This document shows, one piece after another, positions 1 through 13,346 of a stretch of DNA of 47,979 bases. Within the stretch, counting starts at the first letter, position 1. The number at the start of each line of letters is the position of its first letter. Location: positions 1-47,979 of the forward strand of contig NZ_RSEL01000027.1 in assembly GCF_003958625.1 (NCBI RefSeq), in the 5' to 3' direction. The stretch is from Tsuneonella rigui (GTDB taxonomy: Bacteria; Pseudomonadota; Alphaproteobacteria; Sphingomonadales; Sphingomonadaceae). A program made the translations under genes and the position numbers. The notes beneath the pieces were generated by a model that saw nothing but the letters and a program-made list of their open reading frames with translations, was not told the origin of the DNA and ran no database searches.

Positions 1-2702
1 TCGGCACCCGCAGCGGACCCGACACCGGCAGCCTCAACACCGGCAACACCAATTTCACCTCGGTGGTCGCGACCGCGACCGGCTCGGGCGGCTTCGGCGG
101 CGACGGCGGAGTCGGCACGTCGACCACCGGGAACGGCGGCGACGGCGGTGCCGCCAATTCCGGGCGCACGGTGCTTCTCGTTCGCGGGTCCCAGGTAACG
201 ATTACGGGCAGCGTGCTCATGACCGCTGACGCAGTCGGGGGTGACGGCGGCTCGGGCGCAAACATGGGCAACGGCGGCGCCGCGACTGTCGGCGCCGGCG
301 GCACCGGAGTGGCGGTGGCGGTCACCTCGCGTTTCCAGCAGCCGGCCCAGCGCGGTTTCCTCAACGCGCAAGATATCTTCGGGTCGACCCAAGCGTTCGG
401 CGGCGACGGTACGATCGTTGGCGCCGCCAGCGTAGTCGATTCGGCGGTGCAGTTCGAAGTGAGCGGCGCCGATGTTTCGGCCAATTCGCTCAGCCTCTCG
501 GCGAGCGGTGACACAGCAACCGGCACCCTCCCCAGTTACGTAAGCATCGCGAACGGCACCGTCGATATCCCGGGGAGCCTGAGCATCGAGACGCCCGGCA
601 ACCTCTTTGTCACGCTCGACAATTCGACGGTCAAAGTAGGCGATCTGTTCCTCTCGGCCGGCAACTTCGTCGCCGGGCCGACCCAGCCGACTACCCGTGG
701 AACATTCAACGTCGCGGGGGCCTTCGACATCTCCTCTACCCTCGATTTCCTCGCCTACGCCAACTTCAACGTGGCGGGAGACGGCTTGTTCGATGCCGAT
801 AGATCGGTGTCCACCGGCGACCTCACGTTCGGCGGCACGCTCGATCTGTCGGCGGTGGGTTCGATCACGACCGGCACCATCGACGCCGGGCTGGTCTCGC
901 TCAACGCGGGGCAGAACCTGGCGACTGCGGCGATCACCTCGGACAACGGCATCTTCCTCGTGTCCGGTGGAACCACCTCGATCGGCAACCTGAGTTCGGG
1001 CGGGACGACGCCCGGCGCGGGAAAGATCGCGATCGCTTCGAGCGGTCCGCTCACCGCAGGAACGATGCAGAGCACGGGCGATCTCGGCATCCAGTCGGTC
1101 GGGTCGATCACTACCGGCAATCTCGTCGGGCGCGACGTGGTGCTGCTATCGGGCGGGAACCTCAACACAGGGTCGATATCGGCGCTCAACGGAACACAGG
1201 CGACCGGCCAAATTTACTTCGGCAGCGTCGCCATGGCGTCCAGTTCGACCAACGTTTTCCAGCCGTTCCAGACCGCCGGCGGATTGCTGTCGCTGCTTCC
1301 AGCGGACCCGCTGGCGCTCAACGGATCGGCGACCTTCAGCGGGCCGCTGCAGGCCGGCGCCGTACGCGGGGCAGTGACCGGCGCCCTTTCGGCCCAGGCG
1401 ATCGACGCCCAGTCCTTCCTCAGCTTGTCGGCGGGCGGGCTGGCGTCGATCGGCGGCGCCTGGCGCGCGCCCGATATCGAGATCGTTTCAGGCGATATTG
1501 CGATCGGTTCGGCCGGGTCGCTCGATGCCCTGTCGGTCAACGGCGTGATCGAGCTTGCCTCGAGCAACGCCGCCGGGGTCACCGTGGGCGACGGGCAGAG
1601 CGGCAGCGGCTATGCTCTCGATAATGCGGAGTTCGGCCGCATCAAGGCGGGCGAGATCGGCGTGGTCGGCCTCGACACGCAGCAGGCAACCGACATGACG
1701 ATCGGCAACCTGACGATCACCGGCAACCAGCTTTACGGGGCGGGCGGCTCGGTGTTTTTCGCGACCGGCGACCGGCTGACACAAACGCCGGGCGGCATCG
1801 TCCGCGTTGCGGGAGCGTTGAATGCGACCGGCTTCGCAGCGACCAATGAGCTCGGATTGCTCGCGGGCACGGTCGAGATCGAGGCGGCGAATGGGTCGAT
1901 CAAGGTGAGCGATGGCTCCAGCAACCTCGGCGGGTTGGTCACCATTGATGCCGCTCACATCCACGTCGCGACGGACGCGATCCTGACCAAGCTGCGTGCC
2001 GACCCGGCATATGCCGACCATATCAGCGAGCTGAACTCGCCTTCACTCGTGACGCGCCCAGACGGCGTGCTCAATGCGCTCGGCATCGAATTCTTCCCCG
2101 GGGAGACCCTCTACATTCAGAATACGGGCACTGCGGGAACGCCTGCCGGCTTCCTTACGACGCTGGACAACACCGATGTCGTGCTGCCTGCCACGCCGCC
2201 GGCCAACGGCATCGAAGTGGTCATCAACGGCCAGTTCCAGACGGCGACGGGACTGGCGACCGGCCGCGATGCTTCGAATCTCGTGCAAGGATTGAAGACG
2301 ACGGACCCCACAGTGTTCGAGGGGTTCAGCGGCACGAGCCAACTCAACGGGTGCGTGTTCCTGACGGGCGTGTGCGCCACCAGCATCACCTCGGACCCGG
2401 TCGCGGCGCTCTCGAGCGAGATCACGATAGTGACCGGGACGACACTCGACGACGCACCGCGCGCGCCGGCGGCCCTGGATGCCGACGAGGGCGGCGACGA
2501 AGCCAGCGAGAGCGAAGATCGCCAGGACGAGGAAGACGCAGACGACGCCGACGATTCGCCGATCGCGCCGCCCGCTCCGCTGATCAACACGCGCCAGCTC
2601 AATCCCGACCTCAACGTCGCTGACCCGGTCTCGGGGGCCGGCAACCCGGCGCTGCTGGGGTCTGCCGTCGACGAAACCATCGCCGAGGGAGAAAGCGAAT
2701 GA
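1..2702 (+). CDS. Large FHA/TpsA-like glycine-rich surface protein, 3' part (5' truncated by window edge)
   Basis: The reading frame is open from the first complete codon at base 3, with no start signal nearby, so this is the C-terminal ~900 residues of a larger protein. The visible part opens with Gly/Asp/Asn-rich runs (GGDGG, GNGG), then hundreds of residues of short Ser/Thr/Gly/Leu repeats such as LSASG, GSITTG and LNAGQN, typical of the beta-helix shaft of filamentous-haemagglutinin-like exoproteins. Two cysteines (codons 2352 and 2373) lie seven residues apart, followed by an acidic Asp/Glu stretch (~2480-2570) and a Pro-rich tail. No autotransporter barrel is seen, so two-partner secretion is inferred; no TpsB is in the window. 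It overlaps the CHAT gene by ATGA, so the two are probably translated together. The FHA family call is by composition and context; a specific substrate or function cannot be given. Confidence 0.75.
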   Translation, partial: GTRSGPDTGSLNTGNTNFTSVVATATGSGGFGGDGGVGTSTTGNGGDGGAANSGRTVLLVRGSQVTITGSVLMTADAVGGDGGSGANMGNGGAATVGAGGTGVAVAVTSRFQQPAQRGFLNAQDIFGSTQAFGGDGTIVGAASVVDSAVQFEVSGADVSANSLSLSASGDTATGTLPSYVSIANGTVDIPGSLSIETPGNLFVTLDNSTVKVGDLFLSAGNFVAGPTQPTTRGTFNVAGAFDISSTLDFLAYANFNVAGDGLFDADRSVSTGDLTFGGTLDLSAVGSITTGTIDAGLVSLNAGQNLATAAITSDNGIFLVSGGTTSIGNLSSGGTTPGAGKIAIASSGPLTAGTMQSTGDLGIQSVGSITTGNLVGRDVVLLSGGNLNTGSISALNGTQATGQIYFGSVAMASSSTNVFQPFQTAGGLLSLLPADPLALNGSATFSGPLQAGAVRGAVTGALSAQAIDAQSFLSLSAGGLASIGGAWRAPDIEIVSGDIAIGSAGSLDALSVNGVIELASSNAAGVTVGDGQSGSGYALDNAEFGRIKAGEIGVVGLDTQQATDMTIGNLTITGNQLYGAGGSVFFATGDRLTQTPGGIVRVAGALNATGFAATNELGLLAGTVEIEAANGSIKVSDGSSNLGGLVTIDAAHIHVATDAILTKLRADPAYADHISELNSPSLVTRPDGVLNALGIEFFPGETLYIQNTGTAGTPAGFLTTLDNTDVVLPATPPANGIEVVINGQFQTATGLATGRDASNLVQGLKTTDPTVFEGFSGTSQLNGCVFLTGVCATSITSDPVAALSSEITIVTGTTLDDAPRAPAALDADEGGDEASESEDRQDEEDADDADDSPIAPPAPLINTRQLNPDLNVADPVSGAGNPALLGSAVDETIAEGESE

Positions 2703-5700
2703 CCGGTCGTCCGTTCTCCGGCGCCGCGCTCGGGGCCCTTGCACTCGCATTGAGTGCTCCCGTCGCGGGACAAGCCACTCCGCTGTCGGTGCGCTCTACA
2801 TTCCGAGTCGGCACCTCGGGGGTCGCGTGCACGGCCCAAAACTCGCCGGGCGATCCGCGCATCCACGGCATGTTCGATCGTGCTTACAAATTGAGTTGCC
2901 GCGATGCCGCGGGCGCGATCGGAAGTCTTATCGCAGTGCGCCGACTGGTCGCTCCGGCGGCCGAGCCCAGCGCACTCGGCGCAGTCGATCTAGCGTGCGG
3001 AGAAGTCGGCCGCACCGATCTCGCGAGCGTCGGCACGGTCGAGACGGTCACCTGCCGCGACGCCAAGGTGAACGTCGACTACCGCCGCTATGCGATCGAG
3101 CGCGATGGGGTGTCTTATCTTGTCGAAGGCCTGGCCGGCTACGACCCGGCGCTTCGCCTGGCGCTGGCCTCGGTCGTGAACGGACGGCCCGAACCGGGCG
3201 AGATTCGCGTCGCTTCGACCGAAGTCAGCGATCCCGCCGCCTTTGCGCGGGTCCAGGCGGGCCTGCTCGAAGCGGGCGATGCCGCGCTCGAGGGATATTC
3301 GCGCAACAACGGCGGCCGCTTCGCGGAGTCGGCCGAATTCTTTGATACCGCTGCCGCTCGCAATGCCGACAATCCGGCCCGGCAAGCCGAAGCTTTGGCC
3401 AACGAGGGCCTGCAGTTTTCCAATCTCGGAAACTTCCAGGCTGCCGACCGCCTGTTTGCGCAGGCGGCAGCGAAGGTCGCGCGCGGCGATGATGTTTCCC
3501 AGCGTCTGCTACGCAACTACCGGGCGATCAATCTGCTGAACCAGGGGCAGTCCACCCGCGCGCTCAAGGTGCTGGCGGAAGCCGTCGCTCCGGTGGACGA
3601 GGACTTCGATGTGGAGGCGCTTCGCCAGGGACAGATCAATCCGCCGCTGGCGGCGCAGATCAACCGCGAAAATTCCGGCCTGCAACGGATCGCCGGTCTC
3701 GACCCCGGCCTGAGCGCGGCCGAGCGGGGACAAATCCTCGAGGGCCAGGCGCAGATGCTACAGGGCATCGCCAGCCGCCAGCAGGGCAAGTTGGCGGATG
3801 CGGCAGCGCTCCTCACGGCGGCGGCCAACCAGATCGACGCCGTGCGGGACGGACGGGTTACCTCGACCGGCTTCCTGCGTTCCGAAATCCAGATTGAGCT
3901 TGCATTGATTGCCGAGGCGCAGGGCCGGCGGGCCGAAGCTGCCAGTGCGTTCGACAACGCTATCGCTGCCATCAACGCCTCATATCCCAATTCCCCTGCC
4001 CTGGTGGCCGCTATGGCGCGCAAGGCGGGATTCCTGGGCCGCGGTGGCGATGTCGCTGGGGCGCGCGCCCTTTACGAGCAGGTGGTCGAGCTCGCGCCGG
4101 GAATTCCCGACGCCGGGCCGACGCTGCGGTCGCTCCTGGGCCCTTACTTCTCGCTGCTCGCCAGCGCGGGCGGGGCCGACGCCGCCGCAGCGATGTTCGA
4201 CGCGTCGCAAGTGCTGGAACGGCCCGGCGTCGCGCAAACGCAGGCCATTCTCGCGCGGCAACTTTCGGAAGGCAATGGCGAGGCCTCGTCGCTGTTCCGC
4301 CTCGCGGTCGGGCGCAGCCGCGAGATCGCACGGCAAGAGGTAGACCTTGCGCGGATGCGGGCGATTGCAAGCCCCACCGCGGCGGACCTCGACAATCTGC
4401 GTATCGCGCAAGAAACTCTCGCCGCGCTCAAGCAGGAACAGGCCGCTCTCGCTTCCAAGCTCTCGGCGTTCCCGCGCTACAATGTGCTCGCGCCGCAGAC
4501 CGTCGGCATCGGCGATCTTCAGGCAGCGCTCCAACCGGGCGAGGGCTATTACAAGCTGATCGTCGTTGGCGACGATCTCTATGGACTCTTCGCGACCCAT
4601 GGCGAGGCGCGCGTGCTGCCCCTTCCCGGCACCCGCGGCGAACTGGAAAAAGATGTTCAGGCCGTGCGCGACAGCGTGGTCAGCGTGGTCAGCGGTCAAC
4701 CGATCATCGACCCGTTCGATGTCGTCAAAGCCCGCGCGCTATACGTCAAACTGTTCGGCTCGCTCGATAGCGAGATCAAAGGGCTGAAGCACCTGATCTT
4801 CGAGCCCGACGGGCCGATGCTGCAATTGCCGCCGTACCTGCTGATTACCGACGACCGCGGGATCACCGCCTATCAGGACCGTTTGAAGCAGCCGAAGGCC
4901 GACGAATACGACTTCACGGGCATCGACTGGTTGGGGCGGGGCCGCAAGGTTTCCATCGCGGTCAGCCCGCGCGGCTTCCTCGACATTCGCAAGTTACAGC
5001 CGTCGCAGGCAACCCGCGCGTACCTGGGCCTGGGCAACAACGCGCCCTTGCCGGAGCGGCCGCTCGGTGCCGTGGCCACCGAATGCGACTGGCCGATCGC
5101 GGTATGGCAGCACCCGATCGCGCCCGACGAATTGCTGTTCGCGCAGACCAAGTTCGGAGGCGAGTCGAGCGGCGTTCTGACCGGTTCGCAATTCACCGAC
5201 AGCGCTCTGCTGTCGGATCAGTCGCTCGACGAATACAAGATCCTGCACTTCGCCACCCACGGTCTCGTGTCGGCACCTCGGGCCGGGTGTCCGGCACGTC
5301 CGGCCCTAGTGACTTCCTTCGGGGACAGTGGATCGGACGGGCTGCTGAGCTTCCGGGAGATCTTCGACCTCAACCTCAATGCCGATCTAGTGATCCTGTC
5401 GGCGTGCAACACGGCGGGCATGGCGACAGTCGATGCGTCGCGCGAAGCCGGTGTCAGCACGGGCGGCAACTATGCTCTCGATGGTCTGGTTCGCGCTTTC
5501 GTGGGCGCGGGAGCACGCACGGTCATCGCTAGCCATTGGCCGGTTCCTGACGACTTTGACGCTACCAAGCGGCTGATCAGCGGGTTACTCGATGCGCGCC
5601 CAGACGAACCGATCGCGGGCGCTCTGGAGCTGGCTCAGGAAAGTCTGATGGACGATCCCGACACCTCGCACCCGTACTATTGGGCGGCATTTGTTATTGT

Positions 5701-5779
5701 CGGCGATGGCGAAAAAACCCTTGTGACTAAGTCTTCAAAAAGCCTCGGGGCGGCTGTCGACAGCGAGACAAAGGAGTAG
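2699..5779 (+). CDS. Secreted TPR-CHAT domain (caspase-like) protease
   Basis: A 1026-residue protein with an N-terminal signal peptide (hydrophobic run ending near GQA, ~residue 26), so periplasmic or exported. Residues ~190-460 are TPR-like helical repeats (AEFFDTAAARNADN, AADRLFAQAAAK). A helical, coiled-coil-like segment spans ~540-590, and a CHAT domain ~605-1010. The CHAT dyad is intact: His854 in HFATHG and Cys903 in LSACNTAG, followed by LVRAFVGAGARTVIASHWPV. CHAT domains are clan CD cysteine peptidases related to caspases and separase. The ATG overlaps the stop of the upstream adhesin gene by four bases. I infer that it processes, releases or monitors that surface protein; the substrate is not shown by sequence. 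Export is notable, because the CHAT proteases studied in defence systems act in the cytoplasm. Confidence 0.88.
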   Translation: MTGRPFSGAALGALALALSAPVAGQATPLSVRSTFRVGTSGVACTAQNSPGDPRIHGMFDRAYKLSCRDAAGAIGSLIAVRRLVAPAAEPSALGAVDLACGEVGRTDLASVGTVETVTCRDAKVNVDYRRYAIERDGVSYLVEGLAGYDPALRLALASVVNGRPEPGEIRVASTEVSDPAAFARVQAGLLEAGDAALEGYSRNNGGRFAESAEFFDTAAARNADNPARQAEALANEGLQFSNLGNFQAADRLFAQAAAKVARGDDVSQRLLRNYRAINLLNQGQSTRALKVLAEAVAPVDEDFDVEALRQGQINPPLAAQINRENSGLQRIAGLDPGLSAAERGQILEGQAQMLQGIASRQQGKLADAAALLTAAANQIDAVRDGRVTSTGFLRSEIQIELALIAEAQGRRAEAASAFDNAIAAINASYPNSPALVAAMARKAGFLGRGGDVAGARALYEQVVELAPGIPDAGPTLRSLLGPYFSLLASAGGADAAAAMFDASQVLERPGVAQTQAILARQLSEGNGEASSLFRLAVGRSREIARQEVDLARMRAIASPTAADLDNLRIAQETLAALKQEQAALASKLSAFPRYNVLAPQTVGIGDLQAALQPGEGYYKLIVVGDDLYGLFATHGEARVLPLPGTRGELEKDVQAVRDSVVSVVSGQPIIDPFDVVKARALYVKLFGSLDSEIKGLKHLIFEPDGPMLQLPPYLLITDDRGITAYQDRLKQPKADEYDFTGIDWLGRGRKVSIAVSPRGFLDIRKLQPSQATRAYLGLGNNAPLPERPLGAVATECDWPIAVWQHPIAPDELLFAQTKFGGESSGVLTGSQFTDSALLSDQSLDEYKILHFATHGLVSAPRAGCPARPALVTSFGDSGSDGLLSFREIFDLNLNADLVILSACNTAGMATVDASREAGVSTGGNYALDGLVRAFVGAGARTVIASHWPVPDDFDATKRLISGLLDARPDEPIAGALELAQESLMDDPDTSHPYYWAAFVIVGDGEKTLVTKSSKSLGAAVDSETKE

Positions 5780-5865
5780 TCTGCTTCTGCCACTCTGTGG
5801 CGACCAGGCGGCATGACCGATCCCGGCCCATGGCCGGTCTGCTCGAATATGCCTTCTGAGGTTCC

Positions 5866-7554
5866 TCAATAAGCGGATAGCGCGATTTCGCGATCGGCAT
5901 TTGCCCATGCCTTTTGCCGTTCGCTGTCGATCAATTCGGCCTCAGACTCGCGCTTTTGCGCCCTCAGAGCCTGGACAAGCCCGTTCAGCGCCCACCCGTT
6001 GTTGGGATGACGCGCCAGGTCCTCGCGGAAGACAGATTCCGCATCGGACGACCGACCGGCTTTGAGCAAGGCAGCGCCGAGCAGGTGGCGGACCGGGAAG
6101 AACACATCTTCCGGCTCATTGTACGAAAGTCCGTCTTCCAACGCTGCAGCATCCTTGAGTAGCGCGATCTCTGCAATGGAGTCACCGGAAGCCGAAGCAA
6201 GACGAGCTGCAGCCTTGCGTTGACCGATTTCGTACAGCGAACGCCCGATATTCATGCCTTGACCGGCATCAGGGGGCGAAGCGGCGATCAGCGCCTTCGC
6301 CGCGTCCAACTCACGCTCTGCTTCCGTGATATTCCCAGTGGCTGCGAGAGCGGTCGCCCGGTTCTGGTGGAACGAGATCGAAAGCCCGGCAAGCTGCGGG
6401 TTGGGAACCGGCTCACGAAGCATCTCATCCCAGCGCCCGAAGCGCACCAAGACGTCGTACAAGTATCCAATCGACCAATCGAGGCCAGGCATGGCGAGCA
6501 GCATGCTGTCGGGCATCGCTTCGCGCGCTGCCCGGCTGGCCGATATCGCCTCTTCCGATCGCCCGCCCATCGCGGCTGCAAAGGCGAGGAACTGGTAGTT
6601 GTGCACGAGGTACATCGGGTAATAGTCCGGCGGCGCCGTGCGGGAGATATAAGCCACGTCTGCGGCCGCCCCCAAGCGGTTGGCTTCCGCCGCCTCTTCG
6701 TATCTGCCGACGCGCTGCATGATGTGCGAAGGCATGTGCACCAAGTGTCCGGCCGCGGGCATCATAGTCTTCAATGCTTCCGCTGCTGCGAGACCGGTTT
6801 CGGGATTCTTCGACGCCTCCACGGCATGAATGAGGTAATGGTTGGCGCCGGGGTGATTGGCGTCAGACGCCAGAACCCGCTGAAGGGTTGCCACGATCTC
6901 GAGGGTTCCGGGGTTGGGCGAACCGTCAACGTTCCAAAGCTTCCAGGGATTGGTGTTCATCAGCGCTTCGGCGAAGAGCGTTTGAACGTCATTGTCGCCC
7001 GGGAAATCGCTCGCGACCTTGCGCATCGCCTCAACGTAAGAGGTCATCCGCGGGCCCAAGTTCGTCGGATCAAGCGCCTTCGCGCCATCATACCGGACCG
7101 CCAACGCCGAAATCAGTGCCTGCTCTACGGGCGAGCCGCCCGTCGACGCGTCTCGCGCCCTCCTCAGGGCCTCCCAACCCGCTTGCGCCCGGGCCTCGCT
7201 CATGGCCGGCATGTTGTAATTCGGGCCGAGCGTGAGAGCGACACCCCAATAGCAAATCGCGCATGCCGGGTCGATCTCGGCCGCCTTAGCAAAGGACCTG
7301 GTGGCCTCGTCATGGTTGAAGGCCCAGACAAACCGCATTCCTTGGTCGAAATATTGCTGAGCTTCAGTGGACCGAGTGGAAATTGGGCGGCGGAAGACGC
7401 CTAAACCGTCGAACAACTGTGCGCCGCTGGCCCAATCAGCCACTGTTACGCGCTCCGCTTCGCCATGGGCGTGCTCATCTTGCGCCAATGTCGGAACCGG
7501 CGCGGCACACAAGGCTGCAGCAAAAAGCATGCGGCGAGTTTTTGAAAGAGCCAT
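5866..7554 (-). CDS. Periplasmic TPR-repeat protein of unknown function
   Basis: A 562-residue protein with a clear signal peptide (MALSKTRRM, then a hydrophobic stretch to LAQ at ~25) and a His-rich mature start (DEHAHGEAE). The rest is TPR-like: AFNHDEATRSFAKAAEIDPACAICYW, then repeats to the C-terminus (HPNNGWALNGLVQAL). A CxxC (Cys98, Cys101) sits in the first repeat. Conserved-looking histidines occur in ANHYLIHAVE and HLVHMPSHI. CAICY lacks the His of a haem-c site. A GTG one codon upstream is possible, but the ATG at 7554 is better placed, five bases after GGGGAG. It is convergent with the CHAT gene. I do not recognise a named function; a scaffold or metal-binding role is only a guess. 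Confidence 0.82.
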   Translation of the reverse strand: MALSKTRRMLFAAALCAAPVPTLAQDEHAHGEAERVTVADWASGAQLFDGLGVFRRPISTRSTEAQQYFDQGMRFVWAFNHDEATRSFAKAAEIDPACAICYWGVALTLGPNYNMPAMSEARAQAGWEALRRARDASTGGSPVEQALISALAVRYDGAKALDPTNLGPRMTSYVEAMRKVASDFPGDNDVQTLFAEALMNTNPWKLWNVDGSPNPGTLEIVATLQRVLASDANHPGANHYLIHAVEASKNPETGLAAAEALKTMMPAAGHLVHMPSHIMQRVGRYEEAAEANRLGAAADVAYISRTAPPDYYPMYLVHNYQFLAFAAAMGGRSEEAISASRAAREAMPDSMLLAMPGLDWSIGYLYDVLVRFGRWDEMLREPVPNPQLAGLSISFHQNRATALAATGNITEAERELDAAKALIAASPPDAGQGMNIGRSLYEIGQRKAAARLASASGDSIAEIALLKDAAALEDGLSYNEPEDVFFPVRHLLGAALLKAGRSSDAESVFREDLARHPNNGWALNGLVQALRAQKRESEAELIDSERQKAWANADREIALSAY

Positions 7555-7634
7555 CACGTCTCCCCAGCGCGACCACTCTCGAGGCTACATGACTGATGGC
7601 AGCGCGCAACCGTGATTACCGAAGTGGCGCCAGT

Positions 7635-7694
7635 GTCCGCTATTGCGTGATTTTCACCCGAGGCGGGCTTTCGGCTACCGGCCCGGTAGCGGAC
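7635..7694. repeat. Nested inverted repeats upstream of the periplasmic TPR gene
   Basis: A near-perfect palindrome GCTACCGG-C-CCGGTAGC occupies 7674-7690. An outer pair, GTCCGCTA (7635-7642) and TAGCGGAC (7687-7694), overlaps its right arm, so two alternative pairings are possible. It lies 80-140 bases upstream of the start codon of the leftward TPR gene and could be an operator or a leader structure for it. No regulator is known. Confidence 0.5.
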
Positions 7695-8072
7695 GTCGGA
7701 TTGAGTCAAACTACCGTCTTCAATCCGTTTCCTAAGTATCAGATAGTCGGGTTTGATTCATACTCTCTAATTCTCAGGAGCCCCTGCAAGTCCCTACGAT
7801 TTAGTCTGCAGGAAGCCTGAGATCGGCGCTTAACCGCACGCTCTTAAACAAATAATGTCGCGCCTCCCTTGGGTGAGAGTCTGGAAATCCGCCTAAATGG
7901 CCGCCATGAGGGAATAGGAGGCAGTACCGATCAGCCGAGCTCTTCTGACAGCTATTTCGAGTCAGCACACGGCGACGCACGCGCGGATTTTCACGCACAA
8001 ACGGGAATTGACCTCCATCCCGAAGCTGATGGGCCGGGGGCACATGCCGCCCCCCGAGTCCCCTAGGCAGCG

Positions 8073-8090
8073 ATCGCCAATGCTGGCGAT
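8073..8090 (+). terminator. Short hairpin followed by T-run, possible weak terminator
   Basis: ATCGCC (8073-8078) pairs with GGCGAT (8085-8090) around a six-base loop and is followed on the plus strand by TTTTC. There is no plausible upstream gene on that strand, so its function is doubtful. Confidence 0.25.
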
Positions 8091-8115
8091 TTTCTACGCT
8101 ATTTCAGAGGGTGCG

Positions 8116-8138
8116 GAAATCGCCGGCGAGCTTCGCCG
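8116..8138 (-). terminator. Possible terminator of tRNA-Leu
   Basis: On the minus strand, ten bases after the tRNA 3' end, CGGCGA-AGC-TCGCCG forms a six-pair stem (8138-8124), followed by GCGATTTCC. The stem is compact, but the T-run is only three bases, so this is a weak call based on position. Confidence 0.35.
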
Positions 8139-8147
8139 AAGAACAAA

Positions 8148-8234
8148 TGGTGCCCAGAAGAGGACTCGAACCTCCACGCCCTTGCGAGCGCCGCCACCTG
8201 AAGACGGTGCGTCTACCAATTCCGCCATCTGGGC
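8148..8234 (-). tRNA. tRNA-Leu (anticodon CAG)
   Basis: The 87-base class II tRNA reads on the minus strand from GCCCAGATGGCGG to TCTGGGCACCA, with the CCA encoded. The acceptor stem GCCCAGA pairs with TCTGGGC. The anticodon stem CCGTC/GGCGG closes the loop TTCAGGT, giving anticodon CAG. A long variable arm (GCGCTCGCAAGGGCG region) and the T-arm GGTTCGAGTCC are present. It decodes CUG, the dominant Leu codon in this GC-rich genome. Confidence 0.97.
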
Positions 8235-8283
8235 ACTTGTCGACTGGCCGGTCGTCAGAGCCGGTCGTCGGGTAGGCGCGGGC

Positions 8284-8312
8284 CGATAGCGGGGGCACGC
8301 GCAGCTTGTCAA
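8284..8312 (-). promoter_or_regulatory. Promoter of tRNA-Leu
   Basis: On the minus strand a perfect -35 TTGACA (8312-8307) is separated by 17 bases from CTATCG (8289-8284), close to the alphaproteobacterial housekeeping -10. Transcription would begin near 8277, giving a leader of about 43 bases before the mature tRNA 5' end. A direct repeat of GACGACCGGC lies in that leader (8269-8260 and 8256-8247). Confidence 0.7.
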
Positions 8313-8382
8313 CGATGCGGTTGCGGCGAAAGGGCGTTTGCGGCAGGGCGCTCGTCAGAATTCGATCCTGAGTGAGTGAACA

Positions 8383-9327
8383 ATGGCACGACGTGACCCC
8401 CTGAACGGCAAGCTGGTGACGGTGATCGGCGGCAGCGGGTTCCTGGGCGACCACGTGGTGCAGGCGCTGCTGTGGCGCGGGGCGCGGGTGCGGATTGCCA
8501 GCCGCCATCCCGAGAAGGCCTATCGGCTCAAGCCGCTCGCGCAGCTCGGGCAGATCCAGTTCGCGCGGTGCAATGCGACGCGGGCCGACAGCGCCGCCGC
8601 GGCGGTTGCCGGGGCAGATGCCGTGGTCAACCTGATTGGCACCTTCTCCGGCGACGTGATGGGGACCATCTGCGGCAGCGCGCAGAACATCGCCCAGGCT
8701 GCGGCGCGGGCCGGGTGCGAGGCGCTGGTGCATGTCAGCGCGATCGGAGCCGATGCCGAATCGGCGGCGGACTACGCACGGGCCAAAGCCGAGAGCGAGG
8801 CGGTGGTGCTGGCCGCGTTCCCGACCGCGACGATCCTGCGGCCGAGCGTGCTATTCGGCGAGGACGACCGCTTCGTGCAGATGTTTGCCGGCCTGATCGC
8901 GCGCCTCCCGGTGCTGCCGGTGTTCGCGCCGCAAGCCGAGCTGCAGCCGCTGTTCGTCGACGACGCGGCCGAGGCGGTCGCGGCGGCGCTGTCCGATCCG
9001 GCCAAGCACGGCGGCAAGATTTACGAAATCGCCGGGCCAGAGGCCGTGACGATGCTCGAGCTCAACCGCCGCATCTGCGCCAGCCAGAACCGCAAGCGTG
9101 GCCTGATCGAAGTGCCCGATGCGCTGTCGGCCCTTTTCGCCGCGCTGCCCGGCACCCCCATGAATAGCGACCAGTGGACCCTGCTCAAAGCGGGCAACAA
9201 GCCCTCAGGCGTGCATCCGGGCCTCAAGGAACTCGGCATTACGCCGCGCCCGCTTGGGCTGTTCCTCGACCGCTGGATGACACGCTACCGCAGGTACGGC
9301 CGCTTCAACGAGCGCGCCCCGAGCTAA
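8383..9327 (+). CDS. NDUFA9-like NAD(P)-binding protein (complex I-associated atypical SDR)
   Basis: A 314-residue protein with an N-terminal Rossmann nucleotide-binding motif (GGSGFLG, residues 16-22) and VVNLIGTFSG, HVSAIGAD and YARAKAESE segments. These match the atypical short-chain reductases related to mitochondrial complex I subunit NDUFA9/39 kDa. Bacterial members are assumed to bind NAD(P)H and assist complex I or quinone metabolism, but the reaction is unproved. Position Tyr in DYARAKAE replaces the usual SDR YxxxK, as is common in this family. It ends in a four-base convergent overlap with the NfeD gene. It appears to stand alone and is transcribed away from tRNA-Leu. Confidence 0.88.
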   Translation: MARRDPLNGKLVTVIGGSGFLGDHVVQALLWRGARVRIASRHPEKAYRLKPLAQLGQIQFARCNATRADSAAAAVAGADAVVNLIGTFSGDVMGTICGSAQNIAQAAARAGCEALVHVSAIGADAESAADYARAKAESEAVVLAAFPTATILRPSVLFGEDDRFVQMFAGLIARLPVLPVFAPQAELQPLFVDDAAEAVAAALSDPAKHGGKIYEIAGPEAVTMLELNRRICASQNRKRGLIEVPDALSALFAALPGTPMNSDQWTLLKAGNKPSGVHPGLKELGITPRPLGLFLDRWMTRYRRYGRFNERAPS

Positions 9328-9809
9328 GCCTCGGCCGGCGGAGCGTTCCCTTCATCCTTGAGCAGCGTCAGCGGCTCGACGATCAGCGTGCCGCCGTCCG
9401 AACCGATGATCCGCACCCGCGTGCCGGCGGGAAGCTCGGGACCGCGCGCGGGCCATTGGCTGTCGCCCTGGGTCACCCGGCCCTCCCCGTGCTCGATCGC
9501 CACGGCGACCGTGCCAGTCTGGCCGACGAGCCGCCCCATGCGGTTGTTCATCAGCGGATCGTCGCTCTCGATCGGAGTCTCGCCGAACATCCGCCGCGCG
9601 GTGTAGACCGCGATCAGCGAGAGGAACACGAAGTTCACGACCTGCAGCGACACCCCCGGATCGAACACGAAAGTGAGCGCGCCGGTCATCAGGGCCGCGA
9701 GCGCCAGCCAGATCAGGTACACGCCGGGCACGATCATCTCGAACCCGGCGAGCACGAGGCCGAGGCCGATCCAGGCCCAGGCGGCGTCGAGATCGGTCAA
9801 CCAGTCCAT
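9324..9809 (-). CDS. NfeD family membrane protein
   Basis: About 161 residues: two or three N-terminal hydrophobic helices (AWIGLGLVLAGFEMIVPGVYLIW, then LQVVNFVFLSLIAVY), then a C-terminal OB-fold-like domain (MGRLVGQTGTVAVAIEHGEGRV). This is the short NfeD (YbbK-type) architecture without the ClpP-like protease domain. NfeD proteins work with SPFH proteins in membrane microdomains, and the gene overlaps the stop of the SPFH gene next door. The ATG at 9809 follows a GTG at 9812; both overlap that stop and the choice is uncertain. Confidence 0.88.
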   Translation of the reverse strand: MDWLTDLDAAWAWIGLGLVLAGFEMIVPGVYLIWLALAALMTGALTFVFDPGVSLQVVNFVFLSLIAVYTARRMFGETPIESDDPLMNNRMGRLVGQTGTVAVAIEHGEGRVTQGDSQWPARGPELPAGTRVRIIGSDGGTLIVEPLTLLKDEGNAPPAEA

Positions 9810-10813
9810 CACGCGCTTTCGTCGTTGCCCGTGCGCGGCACGGCGGCGCGCGGGCGCGGCCTGGCTAGCTGGACCCCGCCGTCACCCGGCGCGGCCGGAG
9901 CGCCCTCCCCAGGCCTGGCGATTTCGCGCACCAGCTCGCCGATCCCGCCGAGTGAACCGATCAGCTGGGTAGCCTCGACCGGGAACAGGATGGTCTTGGC
10001 GTTGGGCGAGGTGGCGAACTTGCCGACCGCCTTGGTGTACTCCTGCGCGATGAAGTAGTTGATCGCCTGGTTGCCGGACTGGGCGATCGCCTCGCTCACG
10101 GCGCGGGTCGCCTGCGCCTCGGCCTCGGCTGCGCGCTCGCGCGCCTCGGCATCGCGGAAGGCGGCTTCCTTCTTGCCCTCGGCGGAGAGGATCGCCGACT
10201 GCTTCTCGCCCTCGGCACGCAGGATGCGGCTGGCGCGTTCGCCCTCGGCCTCGAGAATTTCGGCCCGCTTCAGGCGCTCGGCCTTCATCTGCCGCGCCAT
10301 CGCCTCGGAGATGTCGGTCGGCGGGCGGATGTCCTTGATCTCGACCCGGGTGATCTTGAGGCCCCATGGCGAAGTCGCGTGATCGACCACGCCCAATAGG
10401 CGGGCGTTGATCTCGTCGCGCTTCGACAAGGTCTCGTCGAGATCCATGCTGCCCATCACCGTGCGCAGGTTGGTCGTCGTGATGGCGTTGATCGCCTGGT
10501 AGAGGTTGTGGACTTCGTACGCCGCCTTGCCGGCATCGAGCACCTGGAAGAACACCACCGCGTCGACTCCGACCATCGCGTTGTCGGCGGTAATGATCTC
10601 CTGGCCCGGGATGTCGAGCACCTGCTCCATCATGTTCACCTTCTGGCCGACGCGGTCCACGAAAGGCGTGATGATGTGCAGGCCCGGCGCGGCCGACTTG
10701 GTGAACTTGCCGAACCGCTCGATCGTATAGACGTAGCCCTGCCGCACCACGCGCACCGAACTCAGCAAGAAGATCAGCAGAACCGCGACGACCAGGATCA
10801 GTATCAGACCCAT
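9809..10813 (-). CDS. qmcA: SPFH/Band 7 (stomatin-like, QmcA-type) membrane protein
   Basis: A 334-residue protein with one N-terminal membrane helix ([18 protein letters not shown]), a Band 7/prohibitin domain ([26 protein letters not shown] ... [15 protein letters not shown]), then a charged Ala/Glu coiled coil ([19 protein letters not shown]), and a Pro/Arg-rich tail. This is the QmcA/slipin arrangement, paired with NfeD as in many bacteria (E. coli qmcA-ybbK). The likely role is organising oligomeric membrane microdomains and guarding membrane proteases. The ATG at 10813 is chosen over one at 10831 because GAGGAG lies seven bases before it. Confidence 0.9.
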
Positions 10814-11252
10814 TTCCCACTCCTCAAACATAACGATATCGTAGCGGCAGGCGGCCCGCCCGCAAGGAAAACCGGATCGCCGGTCATGGGCAGGGTGTCA
10901 CGCAAAACGGCCCTCGAAACTCTGTGACTTTGGGCCGGTCGGTCCTCGGCGAATAAGGTCGCCGCGATCGGGCGCGTGTGACTTTCGGGTCGGGTGAAAG
11001 CCACACGATCACGTGATCTTGCCGGGACGATGGAGGTGACAGGCGCCCATAGGCGTCGTTTGAAGCAGGCTAAGTCCATGTAGGAAACGCCTTTTTGCTG
11101 CTCGTCGACCCCACGCAGACGCTCGTCGAATGGCCCACACGGTCGTCGACCGAGCGCGGGCGCTCGTCGAGCCGGCCGCGCACTCTCCGCCACCTCCGCT
11201 AGCAGCACGGCGGGGACGAAGCGCGCAGCCGCGCTCGATGGAGATTGGGGAC
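10814..11252. promoter_or_regulatory. Repeat-rich bidirectional regulatory region between qmcA and the TonB-dependent receptor
   Basis: This 439-bp divergent intergenic region has no gene I can support. It carries the palindrome ACGATATCGT (10833-10842), two TGTGACTTT copies 54 bases apart (10923 and 10977), the imperfect inverted repeat GTGTGACTTTC/GAAAGCCACAC (10976-10986 and 10996-11006), the palindrome GATCACGTGATC (11007-11018), and four phased copies of GCTCGTCGA-like sequence (11100-11171). Such density suggests regulated transcription, most plausibly of the receptor gene. Confidence 0.55.
11100..11171 (+). repeat. Four helically phased direct repeats (consensus GCTCGTCGAN)
   Basis: Ten-base copies start at 11100 (GCTCGTCGAC), 11121 (GCTCGTCGAA), 11141 (GGTCGTCGAC) and 11162 (GCTCGTCGAG). 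The spacings are 21, 20 and 21 bases, or two helical turns each, so a protein bound to all four would lie on one DNA face. The sequences between copies are unrelated. The last copy is 82 bases before the receptor start codon. Confidence 0.65.
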
Positions 11253-13346
11253 ATGAAGCTTACCGCAACGGCGCTGCTGTGCAGTGCGGCGATGGCCGTG
11301 CCGGGACAAGCGCAGGACGCACCGATCAGGGACGCGCCCCCTCCCCAAGCGACCGAAATCGTTCCGCCGAGCGAGACGCCTGCCGGCCGCCAAGTCTACA
11401 CCCCGGCCGACTTCGCGCGCTATGCGCCGAAGACCGCAGCGGACATGATCCAGCAGGTGCCCGGCTTCCAGATCCGCGAAAGCGAGCAGCTGCGGGGCCT
11501 GGGCCAGGCAACGGGCAACGTGCTGTTCAACGGCAAGCGGTCCTCGACCAAGTCGGATTCGCTGTTCGACCTCCTCAGCCGCATTCCGGCGGCGAACGTC
11601 GAGCGGATCGAAATCGTCGATGGTGCGACGCTCGATATCCCCGGCCTTTCCGGGCAGGTCGCCAACATCGTTTACCAGTCCTCCTCGCTGTCGGGCCAGT
11701 TCGCCTGGACCGGGGAGATGCGCGCGCACTACGCCGATCCGTTGTTCACCCGCGGGAGCGTTTCGATCAGCGGGCGCAGCGGTGCGCTCGAATACGAAGC
11801 TGGAATCGACAACAGCGGCGCCGGCCGCAGCGCCGCGGGCGGACCGACGCTGATCCGCGGTGGCAGCGGCGCGATCATCGAGACTCGCTCCGACGAGTGG
11901 ACCAGCAACTACGACGCCCCCAAAGTGTCGGGCAAGCTGACCTGGACCGGCGCCGGCGGCAGCGTCGCGCACGGCCACGCGGATTACCAGCGCACCTATT
12001 CGCATTACGACGAACTGGGCTTGCGCGTCTCGCCTGGGCTGCCGGACCGCCTGCGCGGGTTCATCGAGCGGAACGATACCTGGAATTACGAGCTGGGCGG
12101 CGATTACGAGTTCGGCTTTGGCCCGGGCAAGCTGAAGACGATCGGCCTCAGGCGCTACAGCCACGAGCCGTACTTGCAGGAGACGCGGACCGAATTTGCC
12201 GACAACAGCCCCCATACCGGCGACCGCTTCACGCAGACCGGCAATCTCGGCGAAACGATCGCGCGCGGCGAGTACAGCTGGAAGATGTTCGGCGGCGATT
12301 GGCAGCTCTCCGCCGAGGCCGCGTACAACACGCTCGACAACGTATCCGGGCTGTTCACGCTCGATCCGAACGGCCAGTTCATCGAGATTCCCTATCCCGA
12401 GGGCACCGGCGGGGTGAAAGAAGACCGCTATGAGGCAATGCTGAGCTTCGGCCGCAAGCTGACCGATACGCTGTCGTTCCAGATCGTCGGCGGCGCGGAG
12501 ACTTCGACCATCTCGCAAACCGGCGCCAATGGCCTGACCCGCAGCTTCTTCCGGCCCAAGGGCACGCTATCGCTGGCGTGGAAGCCGTCCAACGACTTCG
12601 ACATGGCACTGAAAATCCGCCGCCGCGTCCTGCAGCTCGATTTCTACAACTTCCTGGCCCGGGCCTTCCTCAACGACGGGAACGCCAACGCCGGCAATAA
12701 TGAACTGCGGCCGCAACAGGACTGGAGCTACGAGGGCGAGATCAACAAGAAGCTGGGACCGTGGGGTTCGCAGCAGGTCCGCCTAGTCTACCGCGACGTC
12801 GAGGATTTCGTCGACGTGATCCCCGTGGCGGGCGGCGAATCGGTCGGCAACATTCCCAAGTCCTGGGCGGCGGCGATCGTCTCGACCAGCACGATCAAGT
12901 TCGATCCCGCCGGACTCAAGGGGCTGAAGCTCGACATGACCGGGGTGCTGCAGACCTCACGCCTGCGCGATCCCTTCACCGGCGAGAAGCGGCAATGGAG
13001 CGGGTTCGTCACTCGGCAGCTCTTCGCTACCCTGCGCTACGACATGCCCGAAACCGATTGGGCGTTCGGCGCGGAAGCGAGCCACAATTTCCGGCAGCCG
13101 CGCTATCGCAGCAACTCGGTCGACAAGACGTGGGAAGGCCCGTGGTTCGCGAATGTGTTCGTCGAGAACAAGGACATCGCCGGCCTGACCGTGCGGGCGG
13201 ACGTGGGCAACGTGCTCAATGCGCGATCGCGGCGCGAGCGGACGGTGTGGACGGGCCTGCGGGGAGTAACGCCGATCTCCTTCACCGAGTCGCGCGACCG
13301 CCTGATCGGGCCGATCTTCACGCTATCGGTGCGCGGCAACTTCTAA
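11253..13346 (+). CDS. TonB-dependent outer-membrane receptor
   Basis: A 697-residue protein with a signal peptide (MKLTATALLCSAAMAVPGQAQ) and a plug domain (~50-150: FARYAPKTAADMIQQVPGFQIRE ... VLFNGKRSSTKSDSLFDLLSRIPAANVERIEIVDG). A long beta-barrel follows, rich in alternating aromatic strands and ending in the terminal Phe (SVRGNF) expected of outer-membrane barrels. It would take up a siderophore, metal complex or other large nutrient using TonB energy; the ligand cannot be read from sequence, and no transport partner is adjacent. The ATG at 11253 is chosen, after GGAG and directly before a good signal peptide; the frame is open further upstream to 11130 through the repeat array, but that extension has no signal sequence. 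Confidence 0.92.
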   Translation: MKLTATALLCSAAMAVPGQAQDAPIRDAPPPQATEIVPPSETPAGRQVYTPADFARYAPKTAADMIQQVPGFQIRESEQLRGLGQATGNVLFNGKRSSTKSDSLFDLLSRIPAANVERIEIVDGATLDIPGLSGQVANIVYQSSSLSGQFAWTGEMRAHYADPLFTRGSVSISGRSGALEYEAGIDNSGAGRSAAGGPTLIRGGSGAIIETRSDEWTSNYDAPKVSGKLTWTGAGGSVAHGHADYQRTYSHYDELGLRVSPGLPDRLRGFIERNDTWNYELGGDYEFGFGPGKLKTIGLRRYSHEPYLQETRTEFADNSPHTGDRFTQTGNLGETIARGEYSWKMFGGDWQLSAEAAYNTLDNVSGLFTLDPNGQFIEIPYPEGTGGVKEDRYEAMLSFGRKLTDTLSFQIVGGAETSTISQTGANGLTRSFFRPKGTLSLAWKPSNDFDMALKIRRRVLQLDFYNFLARAFLNDGNANAGNNELRPQQDWSYEGEINKKLGPWGSQQVRLVYRDVEDFVDVIPVAGGESVGNIPKSWAAAIVSTSTIKFDPAGLKGLKLDMTGVLQTSRLRDPFTGEKRQWSGFVTRQLFATLRYDMPETDWAFGAEASHNFRQPRYRSNSVDKTWEGPWFANVFVENKDIAGLTVRADVGNVLNARSRRERTVWTGLRGVTPISFTESRDRLIGPIFTLSVRGNF

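Follow-up and report, generated by a model that had tools for sequence, protein, structure and literature searches.

Why should the gene of a caspase-like protease overlap that of a large exoprotein, and could the one product act on the other? The question is raised by the left end of a contig of Tsuneonella rigui, which we call the window (the whole stretch of DNA analysed, that is the entire contig G000:C27, positions 1-47979, from a source genome of 2.86 Mb). A first-pass annotation had described here a giant FHA-like surface protein translationally coupled to a secreted CHAT protease that might process its C-terminal region. The two genes close a two-partner secretion (TPS) operon, TpsB-TpsA-CHAT, of which the window has the 3' end and in which TpsA is the exoprotein. 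CHAT-linked TpsAs usually carry a tag in their C-terminal tail that was not seen in the CHAT-free relatives examined, and this comparison of sequences suggests that the protease trims or releases TpsA. The reading that we favour, with moderate confidence, is that a periplasmic CHAT protein would recognize and cut the TpsA tail, its candidate substrate, at a putative site that would lead to processing or release of the adhesin.

The exoprotein open reading frame (ORF; 3-2702, on the + strand like every feature of the locus given below) is open at its 5' end at the contig start and closes with a TGA stop, so that the 'giant' exoprotein is represented in the window by its C-terminal 899 aa, the 5' part being lost. 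This fragment has 0 matches in Pfam and 0 in NCBIfam, and its FHA-like character rests on three other lines of evidence. A congener (G004), whose CHAT protein is 75% identical to that of the window, has the full operon, with a TpsB of 614 aa, a TpsA of 2263 aa and a CHAT protein of 1013 aa. Another contig of the window genome (C3, 11.1 kb) carries TpsB followed by 1264 aa of a TpsA that runs off the contig end. The C-terminal part of the window TpsA is predicted to form a right-handed beta-helix, its top matches being a TPS haemolysin fragment and beta-helix enzymes. The C3 TpsB (L134), which lies outside the window, matches ShlB (5.9e-14) and POTRA_2 (2.1e-9) and is sister to the G004 TpsB in the tree (SH-aLRT 98). 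The C3 TpsA may have the N-terminal TPS domain, which the truncated TpsA of the window lacks: PF05860 scores 34.2 bits (cut-off 33.5), TIGR01901 gives an E-value of 5.6e-6, below its cut-off, and hmmscan no Pfam match. Because C3 combines a sister of the G004 TpsB with an unfinished TpsA, it probably carries the missing 5' half of the window operon, the two contigs being unjoined. The earlier description of the exoprotein thus stands as regards its kind and falls short as regards its size, since the window holds only the fragment, without a domain match. A contact-dependent growth inhibition system with a C-terminal toxin and an immunity gene was also considered and rejected: the fragment has no Pfam domain, its end is predicted to be disordered and the next gene encodes CHAT.

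In a survey of 249 genomes of the family, 112 had a match to the CHAT protein, ranked by score as strong in 86, intermediate in five and weak in 21. At the locus level, 65 strong loci were compared (58 fetched, five from congeners, the window and its paralogue), and TpsB and/or TpsA were found by profile within a slice of 16-29 kb at 56 of them. Of the nine that remain, seven are preceded on the same strand, at a distance of 10-23 kb, by TpsB, and a long TpsA ORF lies between the two genes; the eighth is the window and the ninth, G135, lacks neighbouring TPS genes. The weak, mostly generic CHAT loci (22 fetched and two from congeners) are TPS-linked in five cases out of 24 (L112-L116, of a distant CHAT-CHASE2-TpsB type) and gave no TPS profile match in 19, among them L117, which lies at a contig end. 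As a control for the linkage, 18 generic CHAT loci from the same family are without a match to the TPS profiles. Across the 249 genomes, all 91 with a strong or intermediate CHAT also match the TpsB profile, 13 match TpsB only and 145 match neither. Random neighbours of the CHAT gene in relatives, the observation that had been singled out beforehand as fatal to a functional pair, are thus rejected by the locus survey and by co-occurrence at the genome level alike. A separate scan dealt with the best 80 of 573 relatives, 78 of them recorded as Sphingomonadales and two only as Alpha- or Proteobacteria.

Three gene orders recur. Layout A, the window type, is TpsB-TpsA-CHAT; layout B encodes CHAT, a protein combining CHASE2 and a class III cyclase, a secreted protein of ~250 aa without a Pfam domain, TpsB and TpsA; layout C is CHAT-TpsB-TpsA. 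Among the best 80 relatives, 26 have layout A, 31 layout B and five layout C, and 18 are unassigned (12 with TpsB in the slice, six at contig edges). In the CHAT tree a single change separates A from B and C, and C nests within B. Distances between CHATs and between TpsBs correlate with r 0.92 over 50 loci of layouts A, B and C, the maximum of 2000 permutations being 0.455; since this correlation extends over three gene orders, the pair has stayed together through rearrangement. The window genome itself has a second, rearranged copy (L003/L004/L135, G000:C28:232461-249300), encoding CHAT, a CHASE2-type protein, a secreted protein, TpsB and a TpsA of 3060 aa with the tag EPITGVGNDDLW; its CHAT (G000:C28:232461), a paralogue 41% identical to that of the window, was the one other match when the proteins of the genome were searched with the window CHAT. 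The ~250-aa secreted protein, which has neither a Pfam nor an NCBIfam match, varies in position: it is encoded between the CHASE2-cyclase and TpsB genes in one locus (L102:15620-16378) and between CHAT and CHASE2 in another (L112:12549-13304).

The overlap itself was correctly described. The tpsA stop TGA (2700-2702) and the CHAT start ATG (2699-2701) share the sequence ATGA (2699-2702), and a Shine-Dalgarno-like GAGGGAG (2686-2692) lies within tpsA, 6 nt upstream of the CHAT start; the congener operon of G004 has the same 4-base ATGA overlap. An overlap of four bases is in itself common in bacterial operons, and it is the conservation of this one, rather than its existence, that exceeds chance. 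Among 28 layout A loci including the window (34 rows minus six that had other layouts, spurious ORFs or a frameshifted TpsA), the start codon lies exactly at -4 in 23, and the nearest start falls between -11 and +1 in the remaining five; the named layout A loci have the -4 start in 19 cases out of 26. The expectation that the overlap would be conserved across sphingomonads is therefore borne out for layout A, and as a general property it is rejected, as layouts B and C keep CHAT and the TPS genes without it. The -4 start of layout A is compatible with translational coupling; fixed proportions of the two proteins, as first proposed, would be a further step from there.

The new finding concerns the end of TpsA. 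TpsA ends have in common a cysteine pair, an acidic or proline-rich linker, a near-terminal tag of consensus (D/E)PV(T/S)GxGNxxLW and a short tail. In the window, the pair NGC-x6-C (2352-2375) marks the end of the folded part and resembles a cysteine hook; the tail that follows (2382-2699) is acidic, as it is on balance in relatives, and contains the tag DPVSGAGNPALL (2622-2657). In the AlphaFold model the window TpsA is a beta-helix as far as the cysteine pair, which lies at the border of the confidently predicted region, and the last ~105 residues are disordered (block pLDDT of 39-54 for residues 291-400 of a 400-aa model). The cysteine pair is present in 26 of the 28 layout A loci, 19 of the 26 named ones and 16 of the 17 TpsAs of layouts B and C, and in none of 18 TpsAs without an adjoining CHAT. 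A loose tag pattern gives the same picture (26/28 unselected layout A, 16/17 layouts B/C, 0/18 without adjoining CHAT). The count for the named layout A loci, 26/26, is biased, as is the tag conservation in alignment A5, these loci having been picked for a tag-like pattern; the unselected counts are those of the 28 loci and of the tail-model search. A matrix trained only on the 16 layout B/C tags, with a cut-off that 1% of shuffles pass, recognizes the tag in 21/28 layout A loci, 19/26 named ones and 0/18 controls, and most of its misses are explained by a variant, PVxSGGDxxLY.

A model of the tail (A1) matched 81 of the 249 genomes, namely 80 of the 86 with a strong CHAT and one of the 163 others (G028, 85% complete). 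It matched none of the 13 genomes that match the TpsB profile and lack CHAT, a group in which G002 and G163 were themselves rows of the TpsB profile and the weakest match, G144, is distant. Of 95 tail matches, 84 are near a same-strand CHAT (32 just 3', 52 at 5-30 kb 5') and 11 are on contigs without CHAT. We make no claim for a CHAT acting in trans on tagged TpsAs that lack a neighbouring one (G210:C29, G028), because the ORF in G210 extends to the start of its contig, and G028, with its 85% completeness, is spread over about 150 contigs. A second cysteine pair after the tag occurs in 5/28 layout A loci, 1/26 named ones and 9/17 of layouts B/C; it comes immediately after the tag, at the C-terminal end of TpsA, in L135, L139, L141, L142, L145-L147, L150, L151, L107-L110 and G004b, and is absent from the window type. 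Several TpsAs without an adjoining CHAT (L159, L161-L166, L170), many with long Pro-rich repeats, have in common a basic C-terminus (VPVYPRKQARH is an example), which may be a further C-terminal signal.

Does the tag follow CHAT, or merely the ancestry of TpsB? Ancestry could account for it, since the 18 control TpsAs go with distant TpsBs. Two genomes bear on this point: the TpsBs of G002 and G163 fall within the CHAT-linked clade (SH-aLRT 99 for their small group, 100 for the clade), and neither genome has a CHAT match. In their TpsAs the only cysteine pair is terminal (DLCPKDDRNCTL, VCGDDKNCTTGGPTK), similar to the second pair that follows the tag in some relatives; tag, long tail and earlier pair are all missing. 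Judged from these sequences, G002 and G163 show that this type of TpsB would work without CHAT, tail and tag together. Farther away, in other families of the class, a tag-like C-terminus is encoded in the ORF just upstream at 8 of 27 CHAT loci; such ends are NTGNEQLW (at the very C-terminus), SSWGNEALWQ, VAGSGNEGLWGVGLP and VAASGNEALWDAGSR. Plasmid CHATs of Agrobacterium, Azospirillum, two Pseudosulfitobacter, Tolypothrix and Nostoc have no annotated TPS neighbours in a gene table that is incomplete, and a phylum-wide draw (16 of 349 genomes) gave no further TPS-linked type within flanks of 1.5 kb. The small Pseudosulfitobacter plasmid P8 (L307) encodes in a row, at 4074-12320, a caspase-family protein, a serine protease, a pair of hypothetical proteins and a CHAT protein.

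The protease itself is predicted to be an exported TPR-CHAT cysteine protease of 1026 aa (2699-5779). Its N-terminus (MTGRPFSGAALGALALALSAPVAGQA; 2699-2776) looks like a signal peptide by inspection, and the CHATs of two relatives (G004b and G006b) have a lipobox. An N-terminal beta domain (2798-3133, strands in the model) contains four cysteines, C44, C67, C100 and C119, which are invariant in alignments of 18 and 24 rows, and is followed by a TPR-like helical solenoid (residues 146-588; 3134-4462). The protease domain covers residues 604-1002 (4508-5704), and Pfam matches CHAT (PF12770) at residues 678-1003 with an E-value of 4.8e-54 and 184 bits for a cut-off of 24, in addition to TPR. The predicted catalytic residues, His854 in HFATHG (5258-5260) and Cys903 in ILSAC (5405-5407), are invariant in 18/18 aligned relatives and in the 24-row alignment, and H and C occupy the dyad columns in 116/116 aligned CHATs. 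A pseudo-protease was considered at one point, when a motif pattern failed on distant CHATs; the idea was dropped once the alignment gave variant motifs with H and C. The proposal of a secreted caspase-like protease is thus well supported as a prediction, by export-type N-terminus, Pfam family and intact dyad. The best PDB sequence match of the TPR part of the CHAT profile is the kinesin light chain TPR (E 2e-7), a domain described as binding Trp-acidic peptides (PMC6214655); a kinesin-type match is only suggestive for a tag that ends in LW near acidic residues.

In the mechanism that we favour, TpsA would be threaded through TpsB and its cysteine pair would form a disulfide knot by which TpsA is retained at the pore; because of this knot, the tail would stay in the periplasm. 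There the TPR solenoid of the presumably periplasmic, sometimes lipoprotein, CHAT could dock on the tag, and the CHAT domain could cut the tail, or a stretch beside a cysteine hook, so that the adhesin would be matured or released. Where a relative has a further cysteine pair beyond the tag, cutting at the tag would be enough to take off the terminal hook. The version with a CHASE2-cyclase may couple the cutting event to cyclic-nucleotide signalling. The proposal that CHAT acts on the C-terminal region of the exoprotein accordingly gains indirect support from the dyad kept in every aligned CHAT and from a tail tag that goes with CHAT. We regard as possible, and on balance doubtful, a broader scheme in which the periplasmic tag behind the cysteine hook, once read by the TPR domain, would switch CHAT on, the CHASE2-cyclase version would relay a cyclic-nucleotide signal to the cytoplasm, and the cell would thereby sense and control whether its adhesin is held, cut or shed.

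Several observations weigh against cutting of the tail by CHAT. In the window type the tag comes after the sole cysteine pair, and a TpsA held by its disulfide would stay attached if only the tag were cut; since the hook would remain in place, more likely in this type is cleavage upstream of the pair, or a cut in the tail that sets off further FhaB-like processing. The tail model found no match in the five intermediate-CHAT genomes or in six strong-CHAT genomes, and the TpsA ends of L064 and L136 are low-complexity stretches. At G135 (L074), CHAT, CHASE2 and gene 3, here encoding a secreted protein, are kept without adjoining TPS genes, the only TpsB-profile match being 361 kb away. One of the 19 weak loci, L127, which was counted as a generic control, is preceded at 4.3 kb by the 3' end of a tagged TpsA, opposite-strand genes lying in between, and generic CHATs can also bear export-type N-termini. 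The co-occurrence of CHAT and TPS genes is partly co-inheritance in one clade, so that the Fisher values, which ignore relatedness, are not independent. As G002 and G163 differ over the whole TpsA C-terminus, they say nothing about the tag by itself, and for this reason we rate the favoured reading slightly lower. Finally, in the betaproteobacterium Caballeronia grimmiae a CHAT-TpsB-FHA operon encodes a smaller CHAT (728 aa) and an FHA whose end is a cysteine pair, with no tag; on this evidence the adjacency may predate the tag or have arisen more than once. This operon (L309, plasmid p1) is flanked by tssJ and tssA, within a cluster of type VI secretion genes.

Among the other explanations, it is unlikely that CHAT is a sensor or relay, in which binding of the tag to the TPR domain would activate CHAT to cut a different partner in the periplasm, such as the CHASE2-cyclase or the secreted protein of ~250 aa, and so report secretion or adhesion status. 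Such a role would suit the operons of layouts B and D, which include the CHASE2 and class III cyclase gene and the uncharacterised secreted protein, as well as the set of three genes retained at G135, and it would have a parallel in Csx29, described as allosterically activated through its TPR domain by target RNA (PMC10028731). However, no CHASE2 gene adjoins layouts A and C, and because C nests within B, CHASE2 appears to have been lost while CHAT was kept. Co-inheritance without direct interaction, the operon moving as a unit and the tail and tag serving TpsB or another partner, strikes us as improbable. It would be in keeping with a CHAT and a TpsB that evolve as one unit, with the untagged Caballeronia operon and with the difference between G002 or G163 and their relatives, which goes beyond the tag; it accords poorly with the absence of the tail model from all 13 genomes that match TpsB and lack CHAT, and with a pair kept although its gene order was rearranged. 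Quite improbable, in our view, is a periplasmic holding or quality-control factor that would bind the tag, keep TpsA secretion-competent or tethered and degrade stalled or misfolded TpsA, for although a lipobox in the G004b and G006b CHATs would put the protein at the membrane, perhaps beside TpsB, and the tag is conserved with CHAT, a pure holder is hard to reconcile with so constant a dyad and the same 13 genomes manage without CHAT.

Elsewhere in the window, an NfeD-like gene and an SPFH/band-7 gene (9324-10831, - strand) overlap each other by four bases and form an ordinary pair.

How, then, does tail cutting by CHAT compare with known systems? LapG is a BTLCP, or transglutaminase-like, cysteine protease and not a CHAT, and the window protease matches only the CHAT and TPR families in Pfam. 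The nearest parallel is the CdrA-LapG system of Pseudomonas aeruginosa (type Vb), where the adhesin is believed to be fastened to TpsB by a C-terminal cysteine hook and periplasmic LapG cuts near the C-terminus to release it (PMC11898600; PMC5422565). The likeness that we propose consists of a TPS adhesin, a C-terminal cysteine hook, which the cysteine-pair pattern reproduces and whose role here is predicted, and a periplasmic protease acting on the tail. In contrast, LapG is regulated by c-di-GMP, whereas here a caspase-fold TPR-CHAT is encoded inside the operon, the tail bears a GNxxLW-type tag, and the regulator seen in some layouts is a CHASE2-cyclase. The second parallel is FhaB of Bordetella, processed by DegP, CtpA and SphB1 (PMC8263021); in both cases a TPS exoprotein would undergo regulated proteolysis in its C-terminal region. 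The periplasmic and surface proteases of FhaB are not encoded in its operon and act on a prodomain, unlike the one dedicated cysteine protease and the disordered tail of ~105 residues proposed here. As for the protease fold, the related TPR-CHAT protein Csx29 has been described as a specific endopeptidase (PMC10028731). Csx29 is the RNA-activated CRISPR partner of the type III-E Craspase, whereas the present CHATs begin with an export-type N-terminus, contain an additional beta domain with cysteines and are neighbours of TPS genes.

The closest precedent in public records is a CHAT-CHASE2-ShlB/FhaC locus on pMSHV of Sphingobium herbicidovorans, which belongs to the same gene family, has a layout B neighbourhood and encodes a TpsA, annotated as hypothetical, that carries EPVTGAGNEDLW; the record places these genes side by side as annotation only and states neither a function nor a link. 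In the collection of papers that we searched, none was found to name a CHAT-TPS pairing, and a wider search led, among the matches listed, only to an account of caspase-like domains within polymorphic toxins (PMC3482391). According to a 2017 review, maturation-protease genes appear not to lie within TPS operons (PMC5422565). What would be new is therefore the opposite of the rule given there: a TPS system with a predicted caspase-fold protease encoded in its operon, where its gene has been retained through rearrangements, and with a putative tag in the TpsA tail. Because a predicted substrate and recognition tag are now explicit, the role of exported CHATs, and perhaps of other bacterial CHATs, becomes directly testable. 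If the proposal is true, an unrelated type of protease joins LapG and DegP, CtpA and SphB1 in the controlled processing of adhesins, and one that may be linked to CHASE2-cyclase signalling.

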